DNA from: Pseudaquabacterium terrae
Lineage (GTDB): Bacteria; Pseudomonadota; Gammaproteobacteria; Burkholderiales; Burkholderiaceae_C
Reading direction: 5' to 3'
Length of the DNA: 42,488 nucleotides
NCBI RefSeq assembly: GCF_013266755.1
Contig: NZ_JABRWJ010000023.1
Coordinates: 1-42,488, forward strand
Every line of letters starts with the position of its first letter. The first letter of the stretch is position 1. Both the position numbers and the translations under genes were made by a program. Positions 14,953 through 32,713 of this stretch are shown here, in pieces. The notes under the pieces are model-generated. The model was given only the letters and a program-made list of their open reading frames with translations, was not told where the DNA came from and made no database searches.

Positions 14953-15375
14953 CTAGGCGAGACAGGTCCAGCGCAGTCCGGCGAAGCGCGCGAAGTCGCG
15001 GTCGAAACTCAGCAGCTCGGCGTTGTGCTCGATCGCCAGCGCGGCGAGGTGCGCATCCGACACCAGCGGTCCCCCCTGGCCGGCGCCGATGAGCAGCCGG
15101 CCGAGGATGGCTGCGTGCCGGTCGCTCGGCGCCAGCGCCACCGCTGCCGGATGATCGAGCCAGCTGTGCAGCACCAGCAGCCCCTGTTCGACCGGCAGCG
15201 GCCGGCTGAGGATGCCCGTGCGCGTGCTCAGACGCAGGAAGCCGAGCAGCACGGCCCAGGGCAGGCCGACTTCGCCTTGCTCGAAGGCTTCGCGCAACGC
15301 CTGCTTCGCGACCGCATGCTGAGGCGACGCGGAGTTGACGGCGTAGAGCAGGACGTTGACGTCGGGCAGCTTCAT
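14953..15375 (-). CDS. vapC: VapC-family PIN-domain toxin
   Basis: 140 residues. PIN-domain acidic residues: Asp5 in MKLPDVNVLLYAVN, the SDAHLAALAIEHNAELLSFDRDFARF block with two further aspartates, and the C-terminal LRWTCL. The subgroup motif LPWAVLLGFLRLSTRTGI is intact. VapC toxins are Mg-dependent ribonucleases that cut tRNA or rRNA. The ATG overlaps the vapB stop (ATGA at 15372-15375), the classical antitoxin-toxin coupling. The stop lies just 9 bases before the riboswitch, whose transcript runs in the same direction toward dadA. Confidence 0.88.
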   Translation of the reverse strand: MKLPDVNVLLYAVNSASPQHAVAKQALREAFEQGEVGLPWAVLLGFLRLSTRTGILSRPLPVEQGLLVLHSWLDHPAAVALAPSDRHAAILGRLLIGAGQGGPLVSDAHLAALAIEHNAELLSFDRDFARFAGLRWTCLA

Positions 15376-15629
15376 GCGCCGCGCGCGAGCTTGGCCGCTT
15401 GCTCCTGGTCCTCCAACTCGTCCGCCAGCGCAAGCGCCTTGGTCAAGTCGACACGTGCCGAGCCCAGGTCATGGCAGGGCCAATCCGGCGCAGGTGCCTT
15501 GCCGTAACGCGGCGCCAGGCCGGCACGCACCGCGTCATTCAGCGTGACCTTGAACGGCTTGCCGCTGCGGTAGGCCGCTTCGGCCAGCAACGCCTTCACA
15601 TCCGGGTCGAGCGTGATCGTCGTGCGCAT
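15372..15629 (-). CDS. vapB: VapB-family antitoxin
   Basis: 85 residues from the ATG at 15627-15629, preceded by GTGGGGG. The N-terminus MRTTITLDPDVKALLAEAA is a ribbon-helix-helix DNA-binding domain; residues 45-85 (acidic and Lys-rich, ALADELEDQEQAAKLA) are the toxin-neutralising tail. A longer frame upstream to 15719 runs through the two palindromes and into soxB and is rejected. It should form a complex with VapC and repress its own promoter through the palindromes at 15651-15684. Confidence 0.85.
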   Translation of the reverse strand: MRTTITLDPDVKALLAEAAYRSGKPFKVTLNDAVRAGLAPRYGKAPAPDWPCHDLGSARVDLTKALALADELEDQEQAAKLARGA

Positions 15630-28045: not shown

Positions 28046-28696
28046 TCAGTCGCGCGAGGCGGGCACCGTGCTCGGCTGCTCCGGCAGCCCGAGCAGGTGC
28101 GCATCGTCGGCCCATTGGGTAACGGTCAGGCCGCCTTCGCTCCAGCGCAGCCGGTTGATGCCCGTGTTGGGGATCGCGCAGGCGCGCGCGCCGTGCAGCG
28201 GCAGCGTGTTCGCGGCGCGCCACAGCATGTCGAGCACGCCGCCATGCGTGACGACCACGATGCGCCGCCCGGCATGGGTCTCGATCGCCGCGGCCAGCGC
28301 ACGCTGCACGCGGGCATAGAAGTGCAGGTTGCTTTCGCCGCCCGCGGGCAGCGCGTAGTCGGCGTCGTGCTGCACCCAGCGTTCCCACAGGTCGCGGTGC
28401 TGGCGGCGGATCGTCGTCACGTCCAGGCCTTCGAGGATGCCGAAGGCCTGTTCGCGCCACAGCGGCTCGGTGTGCACGGCCAGACCATGGCTGCGGGCGA
28501 TCGGCGCGGCGGTGGCCTGCGCGCGCTGCAGGTCGCTGGCGATCAGCACGTCGATGCGCTCGCCGGTCAGCCGCTCGCCGAGCCGCGTCGCCTGTTCGAG
28601 GCCGAGCGTGTTCAGCGGCACGTCGATCTGGCCCTGGAAGCGGTGCTGGCGATTCCAGTCGGTCTCGCCGTGGCGGATCACGATCAACTCGGTCAT
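28046..28696 (-). CDS. Histidine phosphatase (phosphoglycerate mutase-like)
   Basis: 216 residues from the ATG at 28694-28696. The phospho-histidine motif LIVIRHGETDWN opens the protein; IASDLQRAQATAAPIA, REQAFGILEG and VVVTHGGVLDMLWR complete the catalytic pocket (two His, two Arg, Glu). Members of this group (CobC, GpmB-like, YhfR) remove phosphate from small metabolites. Which substrate is used cannot be told. A long frame upstream of the ATG overlaps the glutaminase gene and is rejected. Confidence 0.9.
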   Translation of the reverse strand: MTELIVIRHGETDWNRQHRFQGQIDVPLNTLGLEQATRLGERLTGERIDVLIASDLQRAQATAAPIARSHGLAVHTEPLWREQAFGILEGLDVTTIRRQHRDLWERWVQHDADYALPAGGESNLHFYARVQRALAAAIETHAGRRIVVVTHGGVLDMLWRAANTLPLHGARACAIPNTGINRLRWSEGGLTVTQWADDAHLLGLPEQPSTVPASRD

Positions 28697-28798
28697 CAGT
28701 GCCTGCGCTGGGGACTGTTCATCGCGCGATTGTCGGTCGTCGCGGGCAGGTGAGTCTTGGCACACTTCGCGCCTGTCACGCCAACGGGTGCCCGCCGC

Positions 28799-29713
28799 AT
28801 GGACTATTCCGCCATCCTTCACGAGATCCGCGAGCGCCTCGCGCCAGTCATCGGTCAGGGGCGCGTGGCCAGCTACATCCCCGAGCTGGCCACGGTCTCG
28901 CCGCAGCACTTCGGCATGGCCGTGGTGTGCATCGACGGCACGGTGCACTCGATCGGCGATGCCGACGTGCCGTTCTCGATCCAGAGCATCAGCAAGCTGT
29001 TCACGCTGGTGATGGCGCTGCAGTGCGAGGGCGATGCGCTGTGGCAGCGCATCGGCCGCGAACCCTCGGGCAACCCGTTCAACTCGCTGGTGCAGCTGGA
29101 GCACGAGCACGGCAAGCCGCGCAATCCGTTCATCAATGCCGGCGCGCTGGTGCTGTCGGACATTCTGTGCACGCGCTACGCGGTGCCGGAGACCGCGGTC
29201 GTCGAGTTCCTGCGCAAGCTGGCCGGCCACGAGAACATCCACTACGACCGCCGCGTCGCCAAGTCCGAGCGCGACACCGCGCATCGCAACGCGGCGATGG
29301 CCTATTTCATGAAGAGCTTCGGCAACCTGAAGAACCCGGTCGGCCAGGTGCTCGATGCCTACTGCCGCCACTGCGCGATCGAGATGAGCTGCATCGACCT
29401 GGCGCGTGCGGTGACCTTCCTCGCCAACCACGGCGTGCTGCCGCGCAGCGGCGAGCGCCTGCTGACTGCCAGCGCCGCGAAGCGCCTGAACGCGCTGATG
29501 CTGACCTGCGGCACCTACGACGCGGCGGGCGACTTCGCGTTCCGCGTCGGCCTGCCGGCCAAGAGCGGCGTCGGCGGCGGCATCCTGGCGCTGGTGCCGG
29601 GGGAGTGCGGCGTCTGCGTCTGGTCGCCGGGGCTGGAGCCATCGGGCAACTCACTCGCCGGCTCGCTGGCGCTGGAGACCTTCACGACGCTGACCGGGCG
29701 CTCGATCTTCTGA
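28799..29713 (+). CDS. glsA: Glutaminase A
   Basis: 304 residues from the ATG at 28799; a TTG at 28757 adds unrelated residues. Beta-lactamase-like serine glutaminase: the catalytic S-x-x-K in PFSIQSISKLFTLVMAL, the NPFINAGALVLSDI block, the Tyr/Asn-containing MAYFMKSFGNL and the C-terminal GVGGGILALVPGECGVCVWSPGL motif. Length is normal for GlsA. It hydrolyses L-glutamine to glutamate and ammonia in the cytoplasm. It stands alone; a conserved repeat unit begins 40 bp after its stop. Confidence 0.94.
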   Translation: MDYSAILHEIRERLAPVIGQGRVASYIPELATVSPQHFGMAVVCIDGTVHSIGDADVPFSIQSISKLFTLVMALQCEGDALWQRIGREPSGNPFNSLVQLEHEHGKPRNPFINAGALVLSDILCTRYAVPETAVVEFLRKLAGHENIHYDRRVAKSERDTAHRNAAMAYFMKSFGNLKNPVGQVLDAYCRHCAIEMSCIDLARAVTFLANHGVLPRSGERLLTASAAKRLNALMLTCGTYDAAGDFAFRVGLPAKSGVGGGILALVPGECGVCVWSPGLEPSGNSLAGSLALETFTTLTGRSIF

Positions 29714-29852
29714 TCCGTCCGTCGCCGCCGGCAGTCGATTCGTCGGCGTGCGGCTGCGCTTCGTCGCAATGCGCTGTTCGCGCGGCCCTCGGCTTTCTAC
29801 AGTTCATTCCAACGCACCAACGCGTTGCCACTGAGAAAGACCGGAGCCCATC

Positions 29853-30032
29853 ATGTTCAAGCAGATCAGCACCCAAGCCACCGCCTTCGGCCTCGCCGCG
29901 CTGGTGACGCTGGCCACGCTGGGCAGCATGAGCGCGCTGGCGAACCACAGCGTGGCGACCGAGATGGCGCGTGCCGACAGCACGCCGGTGCAGCAGGTCG
30001 TGATCGTCGGCAAGCGGGACGTGCGCGGCTGA
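29853..30032 (+). CDS. 59-aa secreted or membrane microprotein, copy 1
   Basis: 59 residues: FKQISTQATAFGLAALVTLATL and GSMSALA form a signal-peptide or single membrane segment with a possible cleavage after ALA. The rest is a 29-residue tail ending VQQVVIVGKRDVRG. The product is identical to the protein at 31079-31258. The tail resembles the VVVxGKR ends of small hypothetical proteins seen in Burkholderiales; no function is known. It has its own palindrome upstream and a rho-independent terminator directly downstream, so it is a monocistronic, probably well expressed unit. Confidence 0.75.
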   Translation: MFKQISTQATAFGLAALVTLATLGSMSALANHSVATEMARADSTPVQQVVIVGKRDVRG

Positions 30033-30057
30033 GCTCCAGCGCCCCCGCTCCCTCACG

Positions 30058-30079
30058 AAGCCCCGCATCGCGGGGCTTT
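30058..30079 (+). terminator. Rho-independent terminator of microprotein copy 1
   Basis: A perfect 7-bp GC stem GCCCCGC/GCGGGGC (30060-30066 and 30070-30076) with a 3-base loop, preceded by AA and followed by TTT. It lies 26 bases after the stop codon. Confidence 0.85.
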
Positions 30080-30208
30080 CTGCATTCTGGGCGCCCCAGG
30101 CCCCTAACTTCAGGGTGGCGTGGCATGTCCGCGCGGTGCCGCGGATCGCGTCCTTACTCCACAAGGCATCGGAATGGTTCCGCTGCCGTCACACGGAGCA
30201 CTCTCACC

Positions 30209-30883
30209 ATGGCTACCAAGATCACCACGCACTATTTCGAGTTCGGCGTGCACAAGTACTTTCGCGGCAGCGCCCATGCCATCGAGCCCGCGACCTACGG
30301 CGAGATGAACGACCCCGTTGGCATCAAGGCCTGGCTCGAACCGGCCGGCAAGGTCAAGCCCGAGCACCTGGACGGGCGTCTGAAGTTCAATACGCGCGTC
30401 AGGATCGACTGGAACACGGTCGCGAAGGGCGACCTCGAGGCCGAGGCGGATCTCAACTATCTGGGCCTCGGCAAGAGCGGCATGCTGAGTTTCGACCTCT
30501 CGAAGGCCAGGTCCGCCAAGCTCGAACTCGTCAATCTCAGCATCGACGAGAGCCCGTTGATTCGCATGCTGAACAACGATGCCAACATCGCGCGTAACTT
30601 CCTCGCCGAAGAGGGCAGCGACGGACGCATCGTCTCCGAGGTCTGGATCGTCGTCGATGCGGAGCTGGGCGAGCACTTCGCCACCAGCGGAGCGGCGGGC
30701 GTGGCGGTCAAGGCCTTCGGCAGCACAGCGGGCGTCGTCGTCAGCGGCGGCAAGCATGGCACGCAGACCGTGCAGCTCTCGTCCGGCACGACGTTCGCCT
30801 ACAAGGTGCACAAGGTGAGCGACTGGAACAAGGGGAAGACGCAGGTCGAGAAGGTCGAGGCCGACTACAAGGGCCTGTCCTGA
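30209..30883 (+). CDS. Unrecognised 224-aa protein between the duplicated microprotein genes
   Basis: 224 residues from the ATG at 30209 (GGAG 10 bases upstream, CACGGAGCACTC). No signal peptide, no membrane helix, no cysteine. The protein is beta-rich with alternating polar residues: ITTHYFEFGVHKYFRGSAHAI, then RVRIDWNTVAKGDLEAEADL, an amphipathic middle (ESPLIRMLNNDANIARNFLAEEG) and a C-terminal strand series (VSEVWIVVDAELGEHF, VAVKAFGSTAGVVVSGG, TVQLSSGTTFAYKVHKV). It is richer in Lys and Asp than its neighbours. The C-terminal pattern faintly recalls gasdermin or other pore-forming beta sheets, but no confident family match can be made. It sits exactly between two direct repeats, suggesting it entered or was framed by duplication. 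Confidence 0.7.
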   Translation: MATKITTHYFEFGVHKYFRGSAHAIEPATYGEMNDPVGIKAWLEPAGKVKPEHLDGRLKFNTRVRIDWNTVAKGDLEAEADLNYLGLGKSGMLSFDLSKARSAKLELVNLSIDESPLIRMLNNDANIARNFLAEEGSDGRIVSEVWIVVDAELGEHFATSGAAGVAVKAFGSTAGVVVSGGKHGTQTVQLSSGTTFAYKVHKVSDWNKGKTQVEKVEADYKGLS

Positions 30884-30921
30884 CCGGGGCGCGAGCCAGG
30901 CCAGCAGGCCGGATGCTGCCT

Positions 30922-30940
30922 GCGAGCGCCCGGCGCTCGC
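30922..30940 (+). terminator. Long GC palindrome after the 224-aa gene
   Basis: GCGAGCGCC-C-GGCGCTCGC is a perfect 9-bp stem 39 bases after the stop. There is no T tract, so it may be a terminator, a processing hairpin or a protein-binding site. Confidence 0.4.
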
Positions 30941-30978
30941 ACGGCCCATCGGCCGCGCGAACGCTCCAGGCTCGCACC

Positions 30979-31309
30979 GCTGCACTTCGTCGCAATGCGC
31001 TGTTCGCGCGGACCCTGGGTTCCTACAGTCCATCTCAACGCACCAACGCGTTGCCACCTGAAAGACACGGAGCCCAACATGTTCAAGCAGATCAGCACCC
31101 AAGCCACCGCCTTCGGCCTCGCCGCGCTGGTGACGCTGGCCACGCTGGGCAGCATGAGCGCGTTGGCGAACCACAGCGTGGCGACCGAGATGGCGCGCGC
31201 CGACAGCACGCCGGTGCAGCAGGTCGTGATCGTCGGCAAGCGGGACGTGCGCGGCTGAACCCACCAGCGCCTTCCGCTTCCCCAGAAAAGCCCCGCATCG
31301 CGGGGCTTT
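30979..31309 (+). repeat. Direct repeat unit, copy 2
   Basis: Second copy of the unit at 29753-30079, offset by 1226 bp. The palindrome CAACGCGTTG (31044-31053) is again exactly 35 bases before the ATG. Small differences in the flanks show that the two copies have had time to diverge outside the gene. Confidence 0.9.
31079..31258 (+). CDS. 59-aa secreted or membrane microprotein, copy 2
   Basis: Identical in amino-acid sequence to the protein encoded at 29853-30032; only two synonymous changes separate the genes (CTG/TTG and CGT/CGC). Hydrophobic residues 11-30 form a signal or membrane segment, followed by the conserved VQQVVIVGKRDVRG tail. Conservation of protein and loss of identity in the flanks point to either selection on the peptide or recent gene conversion. 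Confidence 0.75.
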   Translation: MFKQISTQATAFGLAALVTLATLGSMSALANHSVATEMARADSTPVQQVVIVGKRDVRG

Positions 31310-31310
31310 T
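31287..31310 (+). terminator. Rho-independent terminator of microprotein copy 2
   Basis: The same GCCCCGC/GCGGGGC stem as copy 1 (31290-31296 and 31300-31306), with AAAA before and TTTT after it, so it can also terminate the convergent gene that ends at 31316. Confidence 0.88.
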
Positions 31311-31315
31311 GCTTT

Positions 31316-32713
31316 TCAGAGCCCCAGCAGCCGCTGCGCCAGCTGCCAGGCATGCGTGCGCAGCTCGGGCACGGCAGTGGCCTCCCAGTCGCGCGCCTTC
31401 AGCAGCGGGCCGATGTACGACAGCCGCGGCGAGGCCACGCCGTCGCGACCGACCACGGCGTAGTGCGGATCGACCTGCAGGCCCAGGCCGAGCGGGTCCG
31501 GGCAGATCCAGCCGGCTTCGAGCAGGTCGCGCACCAGCGGCGATGGGCAGCGGCGCAGGTCCGAGCTCGGACCGGTGCAGTTGACGATGTGCTGGACCGT
31601 CAGCCGCTCGGTGCCCGCCGCACCACGCCGCTGCAGCTGCACGACGAGACCCGCGTCGCCGGGTTCGACCGAGACCATGCGCGCCGCCCGCACATCGAGC
31701 GCGCCCTGCTCGACGAGCCCTTGGTACGCCTCGTGCGCCGCCGGCGCGCAGCGATGGCGCAGCACTTCCCAGTGCGGCCGCGCATGGCGCAGAAAGCGTG
31801 CGCGGTCAACGGCCGACAGTCGTTGCCACAGCGCCGGCGTGTGCGCGCGCAGGGCGCCGATCACGTCGCGCCAGTCCTCGCCGTTCGCGATGCGTGCCGC
31901 GATATCCCGCCGCAGCACGCGCCACTGCTGGCGCAGCGAATCGCCCATCGCCGCGACCAGCGCGCCGGCATCCAGCGCACCCGGCGCAGCGCCGCTGCGG
32001 CGGTGCGGGTTGGGCGCCAATCCACGCCGCGAGATGCTGATCAGCCGTCCGCGCCGCGCATCACGCGCCAGCGCCAGCGCGACGTCGACCGCCGTCAACC
32101 CGGCCCCGACCAGCAGCACGTCGTCGTTCGCACCGATGCCTTGCAGCGCGCCCCTGGCCCACGGATCGCGGATGTAGCGTGCGCCGGCGGCCGCGATCGC
32201 CGCGGGCGGCAGCGGATCGAGCGGCGCGAAGTGCCCGAAGGCCAGCACGACATGATCGGCCGCGATCAGGCCGCCCTGCGCCAGCCGGATCGCGACGCCG
32301 GCGTCGGCATCGATGTCGAGCCCGATCACGCGGCCGACGATGCGTTCCAGCGCGATCGCCGGCGCGGCGGTCAGCTCGGCCGCCGACAGCAGGGCATCGA
32401 GGTAGGCGCCATACAGGCGGCGCGAGACGAAGGAGGTCGGCTCGACCTGCGGATCGGACCAGCGGCAATAACGCAGAAAATCCTCGGCATCCTGCGCCAG
32501 CGCACTCATGTTGGCGGCCGGCACGTTCAGCACGTGCTCGCGGCTGGATGTGCCGTAGGCCAGGCCGCGTGCCATGCGGCCCGATTCGTTGATCAGCACC
32601 ACCTGCAGCCCCTCGGCCGGTGCGTGGCGCAACAGCTGAACCGCGGTGACCGCGCCGCTGAAACCGGCGCCGACGATCGCGATGCGGCGGGGGCGGGTCG
32701 ATGGACGCGTCAT
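31316..32713 (-). CDS. FAD/NAD(P)-binding protein (PF13454-type)
   Basis: 465 residues from the ATG at 32711-32713. The N-terminal dinucleotide motif RRIAIVGAGFSGAVTAVQLLRHA and a second nucleotide-binding stretch NDDVLLVGAGLTAVDVALALARD are typical of the FAD-NAD(P)-binding family. ARGLAYGTSSREHVLNVPAANMSAL is the family signature near residue 50. VNCTGPSSDLRR and SRRGLAPNPHRR support this. The reaction is unknown; relatives are flavin-dependent oxidoreductases of small metabolites. It runs opposite to the Mop gene across a 146-bp gap that holds the shared 41-nt element. Confidence 0.85.
   Translation of the reverse strand: MTRPSTRPRRIAIVGAGFSGAVTAVQLLRHAPAEGLQVVLINESGRMARGLAYGTSSREHVLNVPAANMSALAQDAEDFLRYCRWSDPQVEPTSFVSRRLYGAYLDALLSAAELTAAPAIALERIVGRVIGLDIDADAGVAIRLAQGGLIAADHVVLAFGHFAPLDPLPPAAIAAAGARYIRDPWARGALQGIGANDDVLLVGAGLTAVDVALALARDARRGRLISISRRGLAPNPHRRSGAAPGALDAGALVAAMGDSLRQQWRVLRRDIAARIANGEDWRDVIGALRAHTPALWQRLSAVDRARFLRHARPHWEVLRHRCAPAAHEAYQGLVEQGALDVRAARMVSVEPGDAGLVVQLQRRGAAGTERLTVQHIVNCTGPSSDLRRCPSPLVRDLLEAGWICPDPLGLGLQVDPHYAVVGRDGVASPRLSYIGPLLKARDWEATAVPELRTHAWQLAQRLLGL

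Follow-up and report, generated by a model that had tools for sequence, protein, structure and literature searches.

A dispersed microprotein gene as a probable recombination-prone frame for passenger genes in Pseudaquabacterium terrae

The genome of Pseudaquabacterium terrae (8.04 Mb, labelled G000, of the same genus as Aquabacterium humicola) contains a 42,488-nucleotide stretch on contig NZ_JABRWJ010000023.1, in which two copies of a gene for a 59-amino acid peptide enclose a gene for a 224-amino acid protein. The term "window" is used for this whole stretch throughout the paper. We regard it as rather probable, with reservations, that the promoter-bearing microprotein gene, which is dispersed in the genome, forms a recombination-prone frame, the content of the interval between two copies being replaced, copied or lost via homologous recombination while the copies are kept similar. 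The repeated gene seems to mark a spot where genes come and go by recombination, because the related bacterium A. humicola holds different genes there. Recombination through the repeats is the best explanation since paired units frame unrelated intervals and one interval recurs, in a small number of cases. What the sequences show directly is that paired units hold different content at two loci, and that two loci of one genome have an interval in common. From these patterns we infer the exchange process, its enzymes and its dependence on RecA. The repeat unit would belong to a dispersed family whose small proteins are probably exported; each unit would have a promoter of its own and, in most cases, a repeated operator of LytTR-type layout. 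The number of units would grow through direct repeats on the same strand. Homologous recombination of the ordinary kind among the copies would then keep the coding sequences near-identical within a genome by gene conversion, and would also allow the intervening DNA to be exchanged, to be transferred as a copy to another unit, or to disappear. The 224-amino acid gene would be the current passenger of one such interval.

Both units are arranged in the order operator, promoter, 59-amino acid gene and terminator-like palindrome (Table 1). An earlier note on this DNA, here called the original prediction, had described two units in the same direction, 1226 bp apart and with drifted flanks, and this was confirmed by open reading frames and alignment. 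The same holds for its statement on identical peptides: the two coding sequences had 2 synonymous differences in 180 bases, CTG versus TTG at base 85 and CGT versus CGC at base 120. Ungapped identity in bins of 20 nucleotides was 19 to 20 within the coding sequence and 12 to 19 in the 100 bp upstream (18 differences in total), and dropped to 8 or less after the stop codon, where little identity was found except for the palindrome.

At the same locus of A. humicola, genes and units follow one another as glutaminase, unit, EF-G paralogue (by Pfam), a 102-amino acid gene, unit and FAD/NAD protein. Collinear homology extended from 28059 to 30034 of the window (192759-190715 in A. humicola), through the stop codon of copy a, and resumed at 30976 (187390 in A. 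humicola), at the start of unit b. The non-matching interval measured 941 bp in the window and 3324 bp in A. humicola, with no mutual match at E 1e-4. Glutaminase matches were obtained in 7 of 21 genomes of the genus, two with 100 and 94% identity and five with 42-56%; both genomes with a close orthologue had paired units with different content. The original prediction had likened the arrangement to a cassette held between direct repeats. In favour of this are the unrelated DNA inside the A. humicola pair and the paired units of another genus, although the cases are few. Its proposal to look in related genomes for paired copies with an insert thus gave a positive answer in A. humicola and in a second genus. 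It had also named observations that would reduce the arrangement to a random tandem duplication, and these were partly made: the peptide is widespread and the 224-amino acid gene occurs elsewhere without it, yet paired copies with inserts recur.

The second locus with different content is common to G158:C3 and G241:C24, both of this other genus, and carries two units in each. The outer flanks were 82 and 91% identical, with 77% over the part with the first unit, while similarity of the intervals was limited to the first 72-85 bp. Within G158, the C7 interval matched the C3 interval with 96% identity over 601 bp and 86% over 274 bp, and unit C7b resembled C3a most closely, with 187 of 192 bases in common. 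In the other genome the site orthologous to G158:C7, G241:C62, held one unit. An interval copied together with one unit via peptide-gene homology would leave this pattern of C3 and C7. The G158 and G241 intervals contained inverted repeats and no predicted gene. The G241:C24 interval (locus L083, 6234-7283), about 1 kb with long inverted repeats and no predicted gene between two flanking peptide units, may be an element resembling a miniature inverted-repeat transposable element.

Further arrays were found. A. humicola C12 is an array of three units, the first and second of which are separated by a GFA gene; the orthologous place in this genome, G000:C34, lacks the array and has just 35 bp between the flanking genes. 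At G276:C26, three units that all point the same way alternate with other genes; these code for a protein of PF00144 (Beta-lactamase family), followed by an S41 peptidase, an NAD(P)-binding protein and an HxlR regulator. For all counts 37 units were extracted, mostly stronger matches and a subset of all listed places. Nine same-strand clusters held 20 of the 37 units and enclosed 11 intervals, 5 of which contained genes predicted with our own simple gene caller. The 102-amino acid passenger was present in three copies in A. humicola and two in this genome, and two of these five copies were near a unit. On contig C3 of this genome one copy lies 0.9 kb from a unit, close to SSB, DNA methylase, Fic and MazE genes, in a stretch which looks like part of a plasmid or an integrative and conjugative element. 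The protein (102-109 amino acids; L027 7502-7810, L029 9091-9420; five copies across two species) belongs to no Pfam family.

Copies a and b shared 99% of their coding sequence, and each was 81-84% identical to the A. humicola units of the same locus and 86-89% identical to two A. humicola C12 units. At the rate of 0.18 observed upstream, two or fewer differences at 36-42 synonymous sites have a probability of 0.031-0.012. Nine copies of the MFKQIS type from both species showed one synonymous and four non-synonymous variants in the first 16 codons. Between the species, glutaminase differed in 43 codons synonymously and in 19 non-synonymously out of 305, and two orthologous pairs of other peptide family members had 4 and 8 synonymous codon differences in 30. 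Gene conversion, one of two causes offered in the original prediction, is favoured at P of about 0.01-0.03, which falls short of proof; conversion and recent duplication both fit copies a and b, and the statistical test is a modest one.

The region upstream of the peptide genes has the layout of LytTR-type response regulator sites. Unit a carries an exact pair of TTCGTC direct repeats (TTCGTCGGCGTGCGGCTGCGCTTCGTC), the sole window match to TTCRTC-N15-TYCRTC, and unit b carries one exact box (TTCGTCGCAA). In the 37 units, which are not independent because many are related, 43 exact TTCRTC boxes were counted versus 2.5 in shuffled sequences (500 shuffles in two-base blocks). Box pairs 20-22 bp apart, with one mismatch allowed per box, numbered 41 versus a shuffle mean of 0.73 and a maximum of 4. 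Such a pair was present in 23 units, and in 32 if a spacing of 41-43 bp was also counted. A -10-like box, in one of several allowed forms, followed in 37 of 37. The combined pattern of box and -10 matched 15 times in 487,174 bases of fetched loci. Every match stood in front of a peptide gene of the family, 14 of them in the set of 37 units and the other in G007, a specificity which holds within these loci only, as they were chosen as relevant and most hold the peptide. The length from box to -10 was 44 bp in all 15 matches, though 24-45 free bases were permitted.

For LytTR regulatory system operons, binding of the regulators to 9-bp repeats mostly 12 bp apart, with 11 or 13 bp in a minority, is described in PMC6193735, as is a bias of the sites toward a position often 10 bp upstream of the -35 region. 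The AlgR core site is given as CCGTTCGTC in PMC4064291. Direct repeats with a period of 20-22 bp just upstream of the promoter core are shared with LytTR-type promoters (AlgR, AgrA, LytTR regulatory systems), and the TTCGTC core with the AlgR site. Moreover, one family member, the G137:C38 peptide gene (L091 5307-7546), has as neighbours genes coding for a LytTR response regulator (E 1.8e-21) and for a His_kinase protein, which make a candidate pair for controlling the family. Because of the repeat layout, the published sites and this LytTR neighbour, control of the peptide units by a LytTR regulator appears plausible. They differ from known LytTR-type systems in that some have the 41-43 bp spacing or no pair, and in that the product is a microprotein family for which no description was found.

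A single-sequence search of this genome with the peptide returned 5 matches up to E 0.001 and 8 up to E 1, and 6 of the 21 genus genomes had a match. An alignment-based search found it in 32 of 349 genomes of the taxonomic family at E 0.01, the weakest of which may be chance matches. There was no match in Pfam or PHROGs (to E 0.1), one NCBIfam match far below cut-off, and no relative in plasmids or viral contigs. The members have a hydrophobic N-terminus in common, as judged by eye; the 59-amino acid peptide is probably exported. By pattern scan, 29 of the 37 units carry a motif of the type PVQQVVIVGKR at the C-terminus, and some members, for instance the 72-amino acid A. humicola copy and the 92-amino acid G000:C1 copy, have it two or three times. 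In L026 (7437-7655) and L030 (7281-7559) PxQxVxVxGxR is repeated two or three times, as though the motif were the working unit. Applied to the fetched loci, the scan was positive for 31 of 109 small predicted genes, namely the 29 units, one more small gene in L109 and one in L069, which looks like chance, and for none of 390 larger predicted genes in their first 90 residues.

The motif VVVTGKR/VVITAKR of some peptides resembles the start of TonB-dependent receptors; no paper linking the C-terminal motif to a TonB box was found in the open-access literature. At three loci of one genus (L087, L088, L090) a peptide gene was observed by eye about 4-5 kb from TonB- and ExbB/ExbD-like genes. We hold weakly the idea of a LytTR-controlled envelope or periplasmic peptide with the C-terminal VVxVGKR strand as its working part. 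Among the papers listed in searches of the open-access literature, none described this peptide family or such repeat-flanked exchange. If the reading is right, the units offer a handle on a small exported-protein family with a common LytTR-like promoter.

Homologues of the 224-amino acid protein were found in 2 of 21 genus genomes (G000, and G009 at 72%), in 3 of 349 taxonomic-family genomes (G000, G152 at 28% and G115 at 29%) and in G000 only among 399 genomes of the order; within the genus of G115 one of five genomes was positive, and in that of G152 one of one (G152 itself). The gene has a G+C content of 0.633 versus a mean of 0.703 (standard deviation 0.026) for 36 window genes, and the A. 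humicola passengers have 0.679 and 0.681 versus 0.719. In three of the four loci the gene is preceded on its strand by one for a LuxR-type regulator, directly in two and with a 124-amino acid gene between them in G152; the assignment is by Pfam GerE for G009 and by eye for G115 and G152. These LuxR-type genes (L012, L069, L070) code for 376 amino acids in the case assigned by Pfam, and for 874 and 880 in those assigned by eye. No relative of the window protein was present in plasmids, phages or viral contigs, and none of the G115 homologue in plasmids. PADLOC had no match for the four members of the alignment; PHROGs to E 0.1 had none for the 224- and 102-amino acid proteins and the G115 homologue, and NCBIfam gave matches far below cut-off only.

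Possibly the 224-amino acid protein, of foreign origin, forms membrane pores and has a divergent gasdermin fold. Pfam Gasdermin was matched at E 0.11 (window), 0.0064 (G009) and 0.073 (G115), and not at all in G152. A hand-typed consensus of the family reached E 7.1e-4, and all of these matches were below the 25-bit cut-off. They are collinear with the profile (75-203 to 86-217, 44-194 to 60-212, 98-203 to 108-217). A Diphtheria_C match in one member (E 0.023) was taken as chance. A profile search of PDB sequences returned 9 matches to E 10, all of them butyrophilins and no gasdermin, and a single-sequence AlphaFold2 model had a mean predicted local distance difference test score of 39.1 and was unusable. 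Bacterial gasdermins mostly conserve an N-terminal palmitoylated cysteine and have an adjacent activating protease in most cases (PMC9079055). The window protein shares with them the weak collinear matches, seen in three of four family members, but differs in the level of these matches, in having no cysteine among its 224 residues and thus no N-terminal lipid cysteine, in lacking a confident fold, and in its neighbours, which are peptide genes, glutaminase and the FAD/NAD protein and include no protease. At one of the three homologue loci, in G152, the adjoining gene resembles an M15 peptidase by eye. If the reading is right, a gasdermin-like branch without cysteine or adjacent protease is possible.

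Several observations weigh against recombination through the repeats or against the LytTR-controlled promoter that forms part of it. The species-to-species comparison covers two loci only and hence few independent events, and no recombination intermediate or circular form was seen. Predicted genes were absent from 6 of the 11 cluster intervals, and G000:C1 and A. humicola:C43 both kept short gene-free intervals. In G158, unit C7a is closest to C3a (175 bases) and C7b (174), not to G241:C62 (154), and G241 may have lost a unit at this site instead of G158 having gained one. The A. humicola unit C34a has a G+C content of 0.667, as low as that of the passengers there. Between species, the first 31 codons of copy a showed 1-4 synonymous differences and those of copy b 2-5, inside the range of 1-9 (mean 4.0) for glutaminase windows of 31 codons; the synonymous deficit is modest and the identity of copies a and b could reflect a recent duplication. 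Concerning the promoter, a general sigma-70 scan of 29600-31500 did not call the one proposed, and the one sigma-70-like promoter of the consensus scan (29825-29854) is a different one. Furthermore, 5 of the 37 units have no repeat pair of either spacing, the sites of AlgR cited in PMC4064291 do not form tandem pairs with such spacing, and the evidence for a LytTR regulator comes from the single G137 neighbourhood, in another genome than this one, where the adjoining member has 51 amino acids and no C-terminal motif.

Among the alternatives, a plain tandem duplication with later unrelated insertions or expansion in each lineage, the repeats playing no part, is possible, though we would not expect it. 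It would agree with the common gene-free tandem copies, with different content at no more than two loci, and with the non-coding intervals of the second genus, whose inverted repeats are what an inserted element would leave. However, at both loci homology ends close to or exactly at the borders of the repeats, one interval recurs elsewhere in the same genome with its joins at peptide units, and copies a and b are more alike than either is to the same-site units of the other species. That the unit is a small transposable element moved in trans by a transposase or recombinase appears unlikely. Similar copies scattered over the genome, a site that is either occupied or has its flanking genes next to each other, and inverted repeats in some intervals would be expected of such an element, but in the one occupied/empty pair neither terminal inverted repeats bounding the unit nor a target-site duplication were recognised by eye, homology starts in the conserved operator as in a gene, and the copies are arranged as direct repeats. 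Finally, the original prediction had considered a small peptide system with an effector inside, i.e. one functional system of peptide and 224-amino acid protein, such as an effector enclosed by genes of a peptide that is secreted as a signal or confers immunity. Despite the physical enclosure and the possible pore-forming fold we find this quite improbable: the peptide family occurs in many genomes in which the 224-amino acid gene was not found, the pair in A. humicola encloses other genes, and none of the three other carriers of the 224-amino acid gene had an adjoining peptide gene in loci of 12-16 kb. In addition, G009 gave no peptide match at E 0.001, and G115 and G152 were outside the 32 matching genomes listed, their presence in that draw being unconfirmed. 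Because these three genomes carry the homologue without an adjacent peptide gene, the gene looks like a passenger and probably is not a functional partner of the peptide.

A more far-reaching version of recombination through the repeats, which we consider doubtful, would make the LytTR-controlled gene for an exported microprotein, near-identical at many loci, a recombination site, i.e. portable homology through which passengers (among them a gasdermin-like pore former without protease) are picked up, copied between loci and swapped in a RecA-driven manner, moving as circles that each consist of a passenger and a single unit. Under this version the homology of the 102-amino acid A. humicola passenger to the gene 0.9 kb from a unit of this genome would be a trace of traffic. 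If recombination through the repeats is the right reading, it would describe an integron-like hot spot of gene turnover that does without a dedicated recombinase and uses many near-identical copies of a small regulated gene.

In integron arrays, passenger genes are separated by same-orientation copies of a repeated unit, and the content differs among relatives. One-orientation repeats between passengers and content varying between relatives are found here as well, whereas the repeat is a whole promoter-plus-gene unit and recombination would be homologous; no integrase was recognised by eye among the window gene calls. Hot spots of gene turnover and tandem repeats evolve by RecA-dependent recombination and gene conversion. 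With these the present loci share homogenised copies and variable content between conserved flanking genes. In contrast, the flanking repeat is here a small regulated gene present at many loci, and therefore content could be copied between loci.

The units have additional sequence features. The palindrome CAACGCGTTG, which starts at 29818 and 31044, is located 35 bp upstream of each ATG, in agreement with the original prediction, and belongs to a hairpin, CAACGC-N6-GCGTTG, whose right side it makes up (29818-29827 in unit a). Four of the six A. humicola units of this type (C12a, C12b, C34a, C34b) have the hairpin as CATCGC-GCGATG, with paired changes; it is not family-wide, since C12c and C43a lack it. 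The RNA fold of the whole leader was nothing unusual (z -1.0), and Rfam had no match in 29600-31500. For the complete unit that had been predicted, the gene and the palindrome behind it stood, but a consensus scan called no terminator in the same region, so that the label "terminator" refers to the palindrome alone.

Table 1. Coordinates of the repeat units, the enclosed interval and the neighbouring genes in the window.
Feature	Position	Strand	Remark
Operator of unit a	29739-29765	+	TTCGTC direct repeats 21 bp apart
Direct repeat	29753-30032 vs 30979-31258		93% identity, spacing 1226
-10-like box TACAGT, unit a	29798-29803	+	44 bp from TTCGTCGCAA box start to -10 end
Leader hairpin CAACGC-N6-GCGTTG, unit a	29810-29827	+	
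Peptide gene copy a, 59 amino acids	29853-30032	+	hydrophobic N-terminus by eye; C-terminal motif VQQVVIVGKR
Interval without counterpart in A. humicola	30035-30975		3324 unrelated bases there
G+C-rich palindrome, presumed terminator, unit a	30058-30079	+	22 bp, identical in unit b
Passenger gene, 224 amino acids	30209-30883	+	between the two units
Operator box TTCGTCGCAA of unit b	30986-30995	+	no second exact TTCRTC box upstream
-10-like box TACAGT, unit b	31024-31029	+	
Leader hairpin CAACGC-N6-GCGTTG, unit b	31036-31053	+	
Peptide gene copy b, 59 amino acids	31079-31258	+	protein identical to copy a; open reading frame and alignment
G+C-rich palindrome, presumed terminator, unit b	31288-31309	+	22 bp; spacing to unit a palindrome 1230
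Left conserved neighbour, glutaminase	28799-29713	+	94% protein identity in A. humicola
Right conserved neighbour, FAD/NAD(P)-binding protein	31316-32713	-	

Elsewhere in the window, two small genes at 14953-15629 resemble, by eye, a toxin-antitoxin pair of the VapBC type.

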